Source of the DNA: Candidatus Yanofskybacteria bacterium RIFCSPLOWO2_02_FULL_45_18
GTDB lineage: Bacteria; Patescibacteriota; Minisyncoccia; 2-02-FULL-40-12; GWA2-44-9
Length of the DNA stretch: 38,237 nucleotides
NCBI GenBank assembly: GCA_001795795.1
Contig: MGKV01000014.1
Location: 1 to 38,237, forward strand
Direction of reading: 5' to 3'
A program made the position numbers and the translations under genes. Numbering within the stretch: the stretch's first letter is position 1; every line of letters begins with the position of its first letter. Below the pieces are notes generated by a model. It did no database searches, was not told where the DNA came from, and saw nothing but the letters and a program-made list of their open reading frames with translations. This document shows positions 32,788-36,150 of this stretch, in pieces.

Positions 32788-33093
32788 TTACTTTATGAAA
32801 CCACGCTTAACTGCTTTTTTAATAATTACCATTAAATCATTTTTGGGAATAAGTGGAGCAAATTGACCAAATACCCATCTACCTTTAACAGATGGTTTTT
32901 TGCCTATAATGTAGTAACAGAAGCGATATTCTATTATCCCAGTTTCAAACTTAATTTTTTGTAAATAAAAATACTTTTTTGAGTAAGTTGATTGTCTGTG
33001 TTTCAATTCGTCAATTATCGTAAATCTTAAAACCTTTCCGTCAGGGAACCTTGCCACACCTTTTTTGCCAATGTTGTTTGGGGGATTGTTCAT
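32788..33093 (-). CDS. hypothetical protein, RM-linked
   Basis: 101-aa basic ORF, overlaps methyltransferase stop by 4 nt. Confidence 0.6.
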   Translation of the reverse strand: MNNPPNNIGKKGVARFPDGKVLRFTIIDELKHRQSTYSKKYFYLQKIKFETGIIEYRFCYYIIGKKPSVKGRWVFGQFAPLIPKNDLMVIIKKAVKRGFIK

Positions 33094-34220
33094 AAAATCT
33101 TTACTGGTTTGTGTCTTAAAAATTCGTATTCGCTTTTTGAGAATAAACTACTTGGTAAATCACCTAATCTTTTTTGGGCAACTTTGATTGCTGGTTCTGA
33201 TTGGTCAATACCAATCCAATTGCGGTTAAGTAATTGTGCCGCAACAAGCGTTGTGCCCGAACCGCAAAAACAATCCAAAACTAAGCCACCTTCGTTTGAT
33301 GATGTTTCCACAATTAGTTTTAACATATCCAGGTTTTTCTCTGTTGGATATTGAGGATATTGGGGGTCTTTAAACTCCCAGATATCTTGCATTTTCTTGC
33401 CTTCTTTTTCGTCAAGAAAGATTTTTTTACGTGGCACTCCGTTTGTTGACCACTCTATTAGTTCTTGTTGGTCCCATTGGTCTAAAATTGCTGGGTCGGT
33501 TCTCCAGTGGCGACCTTTGGGTGGTTTCATTCCTTTCCACTCTTTGCTTGTGTTTCCGTTGGAAGTTTCGCCAGGTGCGTGAAGTGGAATTGTGGTATAT
33601 CGTCGCCCATTTTTGTCAAACTTTTTAAATAAGCGCTCTTCATCTTCTTCAGAAAAAGGAATACGTGGGTTATTCCAAATCGGGTTCTCTGATTTTGAAT
33701 AGAATAATATCAAATCCTTGATATTACCATAAGCTTTGCGATGAAAGTTCTTGGGATTACACTTGATACGAGTAATATCATTTCTAAACATATCTCGCCC
33801 AAAAACCTCGTCCATAATAAGTTTTACGTAATGCCCAATCTTATAGTCAATGTGAAGGTAAATAGAACCACGCTCTGACAAAAGTTCACGTAAAAAAAAT
33901 AAGCGTTCTCGTAAAAATTCCAAAAAATCAGCTCCAATCAAAATGTCGCTATACGCAATTGCATCGTTGCTACTACTGCTGATTGTATTTGCACGGTCAT
34001 CGCTAATTTTAAAATGTCCGCTTGTGGCAAATGGGGGGTCAATATAAACCAAGTCAATCTTGCCCGAATAATTATCAAGTAGTGTTTTGAGAGCAGGAAG
34101 GTTATCGGCATAAATTAGTTTGTTTTTTGCTCCTCTGCCAGAGATTACTCTTAATTCTGCTTTTACTGTTTTTTCAAGAATATCTTTCTCGTGTTTCTTG
34201 TTTTCATAAGTAATAAACAT
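33090..34220 (-). CDS. DNA adenine methyltransferase (beta-class, type III-like)
   Basis: KIDLVYIDPPFATSGHF (motif IV DPPF) preceding VLDCFCGSGTTLVAAQLLNRNWIGID (motif I FxGxG). Confidence 0.88.
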   Translation of the reverse strand: MFITYENKKHEKDILEKTVKAELRVISGRGAKNKLIYADNLPALKTLLDNYSGKIDLVYIDPPFATSGHFKISDDRANTISSSSNDAIAYSDILIGADFLEFLRERLFFLRELLSERGSIYLHIDYKIGHYVKLIMDEVFGRDMFRNDITRIKCNPKNFHRKAYGNIKDLILFYSKSENPIWNNPRIPFSEEDEERLFKKFDKNGRRYTTIPLHAPGETSNGNTSKEWKGMKPPKGRHWRTDPAILDQWDQQELIEWSTNGVPRKKIFLDEKEGKKMQDIWEFKDPQYPQYPTEKNLDMLKLIVETSSNEGGLVLDCFCGSGTTLVAAQLLNRNWIGIDQSEPAIKVAQKRLGDLPSSLFSKSEYEFLRHKPVKIL

Positions 34221-34225
34221 AGTAA

Positions 34226-35008
34226 TTAGATTTGGTATAGAAACTCACGCAAAACAAGTGCGCTCATAATGTTCTCTTTCTTCAATTTACCCGCAATGCT
34301 TTTATACATTTTATTGTTACCTTTGATATAAAGCACCCCATCAAGTATTGCGACAGTTATCGCCTCTATACCTTTCGCCTTTACTGTTGCGATAGCATCG
34401 TTAAATTGTGCATTTTGGTGTCCACCGAAATCAGTCAGAAACTTTGCTTCGCCCATAACGTATTTTCCATTGAAGCGACCAATAAAGTCCAGTCCTTTGT
34501 TGTGTTTGTAGTTCAGATGTTCTTTTGCAAACCTCATCATCTCTGCATCACTTGCATCTAAAATGGTATTTCCTTTTGCTTTTACAAATTCGTCAAGTTT
34601 CACTGGTTCAATTCCTAATGACTTCTTTTTAAGCCAGCGCTTGAAAAGTGGTCCAATCTGTCGGTTTGTTTCTTTTGGTTCAGAACAACGGGCGTAAATC
34701 GTATTAAGTCCCATTTCATATAAGCGACCAGAAAGCCGTGCTACTGTCGCAGGATTTCGCTCTAACGCAGTTTCATCGCGTTTTAAATAGGCAACATAGG
34801 AATCTTTAATTGGGAATAATTCAAACTTTAAAAGATTTTTTAAGAGAGTTATGTTATCACGTTTTCTAAACGCTTTTTCTACGTCTTTCCAAAGTTCCTC
34901 ATTAAGCTCGCGGATTCCTTCGGGAATTGTTGGATATACTTGAAATAAGTCGTCTAGGTAACTTCTTTGGTTCGCGTAGTCAATACTCAATTGTGTCCAG
35001 TAGTTCAT
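34226..35008 (-). CDS. putative type II restriction endonuclease (PD-(D/E)XK-like)
   Basis: KGLDFIGRFNGKYVMGEAKFLTDFGGHQNAQF (D...GEAK motif) immediately upstream of the methyltransferase; start trimmed to MNYWTQLS. Confidence 0.7.
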   Translation of the reverse strand: MNYWTQLSIDYANQRSYLDDLFQVYPTIPEGIRELNEELWKDVEKAFRKRDNITLLKNLLKFELFPIKDSYVAYLKRDETALERNPATVARLSGRLYEMGLNTIYARCSEPKETNRQIGPLFKRWLKKKSLGIEPVKLDEFVKAKGNTILDASDAEMMRFAKEHLNYKHNKGLDFIGRFNGKYVMGEAKFLTDFGGHQNAQFNDAIATVKAKGIEAITVAILDGVLYIKGNNKMYKSIAGKLKKENIMSALVLREFLYQI

Positions 35009-35027
35009 GGTTTTAATAAAATAAAAA

Positions 35028-35053
35028 GTTAACTTGTATACTAACAAGTTAAC
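35028..35053. promoter_or_regulatory. operator-like palindrome upstream of the restriction gene
   Basis: GTTAACTTGT-atacta-ACAAGTTAAC, perfect 10-bp arms, 20 nt upstream of ATG 35008. Confidence 0.65.
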
Positions 35054-35096: not shown

Positions 35097-35474
35097 TTAG
35101 GAATGTAACCTAAATGACCTACCTTTTTTCTTGTCATCTTTGTCGTCTTTCGCCCCAACTTCTTCTCGCATTTCTTTTGCCGTTCGTTTTGCCCAGAACA
35201 CATTTACAAAATGCCAAACAAACATAGAAAGAACCGCCATAGCACCTAATGGGGGGTATATCGCTCCTAATACAAAAGTCAGAATCAGCAAAAGAAAGGT
35301 GCCACCAATATAATCAAAGAAGCGGCGTGTTTGGTTTAGGTAAAGCCACCCGAAAGCTCCAAAGAATAACACTAAAATAGCGGCAGTATTAGGATTTTTA
35401 TTCTTTGCCTTGATGCTTGCTCTATATAGTTCTTCCTCTTTAATTTTTTGTTTTTCTGCTTCGGTTAAAGCCAT
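35097..35474 (-). CDS. small TM2-domain-like membrane protein
   Basis: KNPNTAAILVLFFGAFGWLYLNQTRRFFDYIGGTFLLLILTFVLGAIYPPLGAMAVLSMFVWHFVNVFWAKR. Confidence 0.5.
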   Translation of the reverse strand: MALTEAEKQKIKEEELYRASIKAKNKNPNTAAILVLFFGAFGWLYLNQTRRFFDYIGGTFLLLILTFVLGAIYPPLGAMAVLSMFVWHFVNVFWAKRTAKEMREEVGAKDDKDDKKKGRSFRLHS

Positions 35475-35923
35475 TGTTTTTTGAAGCTTTTAGCTTGCCC
35501 GCTAATAAGCTCCGTTATTTTTTTATTCCACCGAAACCTATAATTTTTCCTGTTTTTGTAGATGTGCCTTTTCACAAACTGCCTCGGTATTTTAGTTATG
35601 AAAAATGGTTCCAGTGTTTCCTCGCCAAGCAAGACGACAATTAAATAATCAAATTCTCCAAGGTCGTTTCTAAAGTCAAAAGAGGTTGCGCTGTTTTTGC
35701 TTTTAATCACGCGGGTTTTTATTTGATAAGTTCTGCCTTGCAAGTCGGTGGCATCGTAATCTTTGTTAACTAAACTTTTAGCCAAGTTCAATTTGAATTT
35801 TTTAGCCGCAAGCCATTCTCCATAATCGCCGACAATCTCGCCTTGCGTTCTAACAACCCCCAGTTTCTCCAACTGATTTACTGCGGTTAAATACTCTTTT
35901 ATTGCTTCGTGAATTTTTGTCAT
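35465..35923 (-). CDS. hypothetical protein with PD-(D/E)XK-like motif
   Basis: GEWLAAKKFKLNLAKSLVNKDYDATDLQGRTYQIKTRV (D...QIK) resembling nuclease-fold core. Confidence 0.45.
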   Translation of the reverse strand: MTKIHEAIKEYLTAVNQLEKLGVVRTQGEIVGDYGEWLAAKKFKLNLAKSLVNKDYDATDLQGRTYQIKTRVIKSKNSATSFDFRNDLGEFDYLIVVLLGEETLEPFFITKIPRQFVKRHIYKNRKNYRFRWNKKITELISGQAKSFKKQWL

Positions 35924-36094
35924 AATTCATTGCAGAACTACAAAACCCATCCGCGTGGTAGTGGCTTTCGCCACACATATCGGTTTCCCGATATGACCGG
36001 TTAGGTCCCAACACGAATGGGTTTAGTATACCTAACCGGATTTAATGTCGTGCCCGTTAGTTTACTTGCTAACGAGTTTAGACACCTAACTTAC
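35924..36094 (-). ncRNA. structured 5' leader RNA (candidate cis-regulatory or stand-alone ncRNA)
   Basis: Minus strand: CGTTAG/CTAACG hairpin, 10-bp stem CCGGTTAGGT/ACCTAACCGG, CATATCGG-GAAA-CCGATATG, GTGGC-GAAA-GCCAC, plus 14-nt complementarity between loop 36011-36024 and 35943-35956. Confidence 0.6.
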
Positions 36095-36150
36095 CTATTT
36101 TTTATACTGCCTTTATATTACCAAATTGAGCATTAAAAACCAATAAAGAG

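Follow-up and report, generated by a model that had tools for sequence, protein, structure and literature searches.

A long-range helix reaching beyond the LOOT RNA model points to a possible two-state leader switch in Patescibacteria

An RNA encoded on the minus strand before a DUF6998 gene of Candidatus Yanofskybacteria belongs to the LOOT family, and we lean modestly toward the view that it acts in cis, as the 5′ leader of an mRNA encoding DUF6998 and a probable small membrane protein, and that it switches between two folds. The RNA lies in contig MGKV01000014.1, whose 38,237 nucleotides are here called the window. Family membership, covariation of the helices, competition for nucleotides, copies of a LOOT strand at the start sites of relatives, position in the leader and an enrichment of membrane proteins among the targets all argue for this reading. 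Speaking against it are the label sRNA given to the family in Rfam, a window locus that carries no start-site copy, and a first gene in the window that does not encode a membrane protein.

A sequence-only reading of the region had described four packed hairpins and recognized no known architecture in them. The Rfam/Infernal scan that it called for, run here with Rfam 15, gave RF03000 as the sole match, above the gathering score; the architecture is therefore not an unknown one. The features of the locus are as follows.

35960-36084, minus strand: LOOT RNA (Rfam RF03000), full-length match to model positions 1-121 (cmscan 83.7 bits, E = 1.6e-14, gathering score 46.4)
36046-36084, minus strand: P1 (TGTC/GACA) enclosing P2 (CTCGTTA/TAACGGG), from the Rfam alignment; 92% and 91% of cells paired in 83 homologues
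35997-36039, minus strand: P3 hairpin of 10 bp, CCGGTTAGGT/ACCTAACCGG, from direct reading, homologue alignment and folding
35976-35995, minus strand: P4, 8 bp, with a tetraloop, CATATCGG-GAAA-CCGATATG; 97% of cells paired in 83 homologues
35961-35974, minus strand: P5, 5 bp, with a tetraloop, GTGGC-GAAA-GCCAC, from direct reading and the Rfam and homologue alignments
36101-36106, minus strand: possible, weak -10 element TATAAA in the sequence upstream of LOOT
35465-35923, minus strand: gene for DUF6998, a protein of 152 aa resembling PD-(D/E)XK restriction endonucleases (Pfam PF22522, E = 3.4e-11)
35097-35474, minus strand: second gene, 125 aa, overlapping the DUF6998 gene by 10 nt; hydrophobic stretches in the sequence
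35028-35053, minus strand: terminator-like hairpin with a T-run, after the two genes and before the Tsp45I restriction genes, from a terminator scan

Read directly on the minus strand, all four hairpins and both GAAA loops are present at the coordinates first given to them, including CGTTAG/CTAACG at 36074-36055, and the minus strand is upheld as the RNA strand. One helix had been overlooked, P1, in which 36081-36084 pair with 36046-36049 to close the first hairpin, and within the P3 loop lies an inner local hairpin, CCCA/TGGG (36018-36021 with 36007-36010). The 171-nt region folds to -65.2 kcal/mol, against -42.3 ± 3.9 kcal/mol for shuffled sequences (z = -5.8; 0 of 200 shuffles as good), and the 128 nt through the end of the last hairpin reach z = -6.8 relative to shuffles. 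The nested helices P1-P5 covary in relatives, as expected of a member of RF03000, with which the window RNA shares the same P1-P5 architecture and both GNRA hairpins. Among 83 sequences P1, P2 and P4 change on both sides; P3 is 69% paired in a sequence-only alignment, with compensatory changes in all 10 of its pairs. A consensus promoter scan called no promoter on the minus strand of the window, the TATAAA included, and exact TATAAT boxes are modestly enriched in LOOT homologues.

LOOT is patchily spread, occurring in 22-47% of sampled Patescibacteria-type genomes with up to seven copies per genome. It was found in 30 of 95 relatives, 21 of 45 genomes of the order, 101 of 384 genomes of the class and 83 of 380 genomes across the phylum, and the 627-kb genome under study holds one copy. 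The approximately 200 LOOT relatives compared come from tiny, mostly uncultured bacteria; fourteen well-known genomes held no copy above the cut-off. A phage collection likewise gave no match, and an origin of LOOT from phage was rejected. In one genome (G185), ends of contigs (C25, with L168; C40; C88) coincide exactly with LOOT copies, which makes LOOT look like a repeat at which the assembly broke. Low-scoring variants from one order (L028, L238, L239 and L029; ~1501-1750) have LOOT followed by a conserved tail of ~100 nt, and the gene that usually comes next on the same strand is absent from them. Neither tmRNA nor tRNA nor another Rfam family matched these tailed variants, which are possibly a stand-alone derivative.

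A further feature lies partly outside the Rfam model, which stops at the last hairpin (35960), leaving the following 3′ strand and the start-codon region beyond it.

36011-36024, minus strand: 5′ strand of a long-range helix, the P3 loop AAACCCATTCGTGT, covarying with 35943-35956
35943-35956, minus strand: 3′ partner strand of this helix, ACGCGGATGGGTTT, with TTGTA after it; not covered by the Rfam model

The 14-nt complementarity between these strands, with two G-U pairs, exists just as the sequence-only reading described it. Among 25 diverged homologues, the 3′ strand that suits the window's P3 loop best is its own (score 33.0, compared with a row median of 11.5), and because this partner beats those of all the others, the complementarity is not a matter of chance. 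We extracted LOOT and its flanks from 128 loci and scored each P3 loop against its own 3′ segment and those of other loci; complementarity was 27.1 for own segments and 15.6 (sd 4.6) for swapped ones. With 25 representatives of less than 70% identity, own pairs scored 27.3 compared with 14.9 (sd 0.88) when permuted, the highest of 5000 permutations being 18.4, and the own partner ranked first in 21 of the 25, the window included. These permutation values are not strict probabilities, since the homologues are mutually related; the main bias is countered by a fresh set of loci and by controls at slid positions. In the fresh set, 81 loci not used before, own segments scored 26.8 and permuted ones 14.9 (sd 0.48). 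When 83 homologues were aligned by sequence only, an 11-bp long-range helix had 85.9% of its cells paired and compensatory changes in 10 of its 11 pairs, and its covariation score was 0.468, against 0.238 ± 0.011 when shuffled and at most 0.175 at slid positions. The covariation asked for earlier is thus seen in both the long-range helix and P3, and for the long-range helix it is confirmed on the 81 fresh loci. Judged by these sequence comparisons, the long-range helix is shown to be real, conserved and covarying; it is absent from the Rfam model and new here.

Directly 3′ of the helix, homologues carry a U-rich tract (T 53-100% at positions 0-4; consensus near UUUUUGUUU) that is broken up by a conserved G (70%). 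A conserved ACAAYTNA stands just upstream of LOOT in 122 of ~206 homologues, the window not among them; the conserved UUGU beyond the long-range helix would be a possible pairing partner for it.

The long-range helix shares nucleotides with the inner hairpin of the P3 loop in 166 of 172 testable homologues, and this local pairing is itself above permutation (12.3 compared with 9.0, sd 0.16). Because the long-range helix competes for nucleotides of the P3 hairpin, the RNA looks bistable. Ended after the last hairpin, the window RNA is predicted to fold with P3 closed (-52.8 kcal/mol); with 19 nt more, the prediction changes to the long-range helix with P3 opened (-60.7 kcal/mol). These predictions admit nested pairs only, so that a partial pseudoknot holding both helices is possible. 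The covariation, the sharing of nucleotides and this flip in the fold lend weight to the earlier proposal of a pseudoknot or mutually exclusive switch. By the measure of sequence and thermodynamics, conserved and mutually exclusive structures join the LOOT domain to the expression platform, as in a riboswitch or cis-acting leader.

A second set of alternative pairings appears at the start sites of relatives. In 28 of 113 homologues, compared with 0.74% of swapped pairs, 8-12 nt of the P3 5′ strand are found again downstream, and nearly all of these copies stand just before the start codon; in the fresh set the copy is found in 15 of 81 loci (0.76% of swaps). Across the 43 pooled cases (~22% of loci), the copy mostly ends 0-5 nt before the ATG, which in nearly all of them lies 48-67 nt after LOOT. 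Two controls, the P3 3′ strand against upstream sequence and the P3 5′ strand against downstream sequence, stayed at the swap level. The copies vary between loci and match inside each locus, so that the P3 5′ strand, the P3 3′ strand and the start region vary together. With its partner copied before the ATG, the P3 3′ strand would have a choice between pairing within LOOT and pairing at the start site, which it could thereby mask in copy-bearing loci. The window LOOT has no such copy (score 12, at the swap level), and in copy-negative loci other parts of LOOT show little signal against the start site beyond a few copies with misassigned P3.

DNA methyltransferase genes, as recognized by a simple motif rule, are enriched among copy-bearing loci (8 of 43, compared with 4 of 151; p = 8e-4). 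At three loci (L099 and L101 in genome G106, L098 in G206) the copy precedes an ORF of ~20-25 codons in place of a full gene, followed in G106 by a terminator-like hairpin; such a short ORF could be a leader peptide. Five copy-bearing genes (L040, L121, L058, L098, L248), among them methylases, a glycosyltransferase and a short ORF, share an MPxKLQLQ-like N-terminus despite unrelated functions, as though the regulatory module extended into the first codons.

The genes behind LOOT bear out the leader position that had been proposed. Of 128 loci, 117 have an ORF on the strand of LOOT as the closest one past it, usually no more than 80 nt away, and in the window the ATG stands 36 nt past the end of LOOT, which thus occupies the 5′ leader immediately ahead of a start codon on its own strand. 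The sRNA type assigned by Rfam contrasts with this arrangement, in which nearly every copy adjoins such an ORF and which favors a leader over a free sRNA. The first genes are spread over many families, the most frequent Pfam matches being to N6/N4 DNA methylases (8 of 102), then SNase nucleases (4) and D12 methylases (3), and they reveal no common pathway. By a simple measure of hydrophobicity, 72% of first genes in the discovery set and 69% in the fresh set have a hydrophobic segment, compared with 25-27% of neighboring ORFs and 24% of neighbors with an upstream gap of 150-600 nt (p = 4e-22). Most targets of LOOT would thus appear to be membrane or exported proteins, with DNA methyltransferases as a further group.

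In the window, the DUF6998 product is not a membrane protein; its ORF matches the Eco15I restriction endonuclease (E = 2.4e-11) and the PADLOC model mREase_II (E = 2.2e-16), in agreement with its earlier description as PD-(D/E)XK-like. The product of the second gene is, from its hydrophobic stretches, a probable small membrane protein. A Tsp45I-type restriction endonuclease (Pfam Tsp45I, E = 3e-121) and an N6/N4 methylase are encoded at 33090-35047. A restriction-modification pair is thus indeed nearby, as had been stated, but beyond the terminator-like hairpin, and for this reason is unlikely to be cotranscribed with LOOT; the number of such hairpins found by the scan does not exceed that in shuffles.

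We propose that P1-P5 would form first during transcription, with the P3 hairpin closed. The emerging 3′ strand (35943-35956) would then form 11-18 bp with the P3 loop, opening P3, or would be kept off if the LOOT domain were stabilized. Since the end of the helix lies ~20 nt upstream of the start codon, accessibility of the start site would differ between the two states. Where the helix sits, together with the start-site copies, leads us to infer the direction of control, closed P3 being on for translation and the long-range helix off; dynamic switching and the signal are inferred as well, and the bias toward membrane proteins suggests that the signal may concern the envelope or the growth state. 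Between about a fifth and a quarter of relatives would have another strand swap available to them, their P3 3′ strand being complementary to the nucleotides just before the ATG.

A static H-type pseudoknot that protects the 5′ end of the mRNA or tunes basal translation, with no regulated switching, strikes us as unlikely. LOOT resembles H-type pseudoknot leaders in having a hairpin loop paired with a downstream strand; P3 and the helix between loop and 3′ strand are both conserved and covarying, as in classical pseudoknots; targets of no common pathway would suit such a role; and a compact pseudoknot with shorter versions of both helices would give the same covariation. The loop pairing of LOOT, however, overlaps the inner hairpin, with nucleotides shared in nearly all testable homologues, and 11-18 bp, about a helical turn or more, are hard to fit into a loop of ~23 nt with P3 fully closed, making full coexistence with P3 unlikely. 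The start-site copies, moreover, imply a second alternative pairing. Since the U-rich tract directly follows the helix in homologues, control of transcription is a live rival to control of translation: helix and tract would constitute an unusual terminator, and closed P3 would prevent termination. We judge such an attenuator decidedly unlikely, given that the conserved G interrupts the tract, that the tract partly pairs into the helix, and that the helix encloses ~50 nt, which is slow for intrinsic termination; the terminator scan, which is blind to long-range stems, gives no call there.

There is a slim chance that LOOT is a trans-acting sRNA, using the P3 strand against the start sites of other mRNAs. 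This would agree with the Rfam type and with a P3 3′ strand that is antisense to start sites in a subset of loci, but the matches are locus-specific, directed to the gene immediately downstream even among the several copies in one genome (G441), and LOOT nearly always abuts a same-strand ORF. A trans target of P3 in the Yanofskybacteria genome was sought and rejected, there being no second exact copy of CCGGTTAGGT. The sequence-only reading had also raised a guide-like RNA or an RNA antitoxin of the DUF6998/restriction locus, on which we place almost no weight. Closeness to the PD-(D/E)XK ORF and the restriction-modification pair is what recommends it; its suggested test, co-occurrence with the downstream ORF, showed that DUF6998 is present in 8 of 384 genomes of the class and adjoins LOOT only in the window; among named genomes, a search for DUF6998 turned up a single distant relative. 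Elsewhere LOOT precedes unrelated genes, so the conserved linkage to one protein family expected of an RNA antitoxin or guide RNA is missing, and both were rejected together with an RNA linked to restriction-modification. Of the options raised at the outset, a cis-regulator has become the best reading.

As a regulatory leader, LOOT would be like translational riboswitches in its 5′ leader position, structured domain and exclusive pairings near the start codon. It differs from them in having no known ligand, in targets that are unrelated accessory genes and not one pathway, and in a start-site mimicry that copies one strand of a domain helix. LOOT has been presented as a metagenome-derived Rfam family (PMC7779021), two covarying pairs were added to it in Rfam 15 (PMC11701678), and the CaCoFold paper singles it out for 28 cross-covariations (PMC7657543). 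The literature we searched, which did not include the original description of LOOT, mentions the family only as an Rfam example and for its unusual covariation, and contains no account of a strand-swap mechanism. That original description is reportedly due to Weinberg et al. in 2017.

Extended to the family, the cis-regulatory reading becomes a more tentative proposal, to which we give slightly less than an even chance: LOOT would be a cis switch widespread in Patescibacteria, with mainly membrane or secreted targets and a strand-swap platform, in which the 3′ strand would imitate one strand of the P3 loop hairpin and the start-codon region would, in roughly one case in four, imitate the P3 5′ strand. 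What is new for LOOT is a helix that its Rfam model lacks, together with a class of targets, and what has until now been an orphan RNA family gains a testable role as a cis leader with two exclusive folds. If this is true, LOOT would be among the few regulatory RNA devices characteristic of Patescibacteria, in which gene control is little known, and genomes with multiple copies would reveal its regulon and point to the signal.
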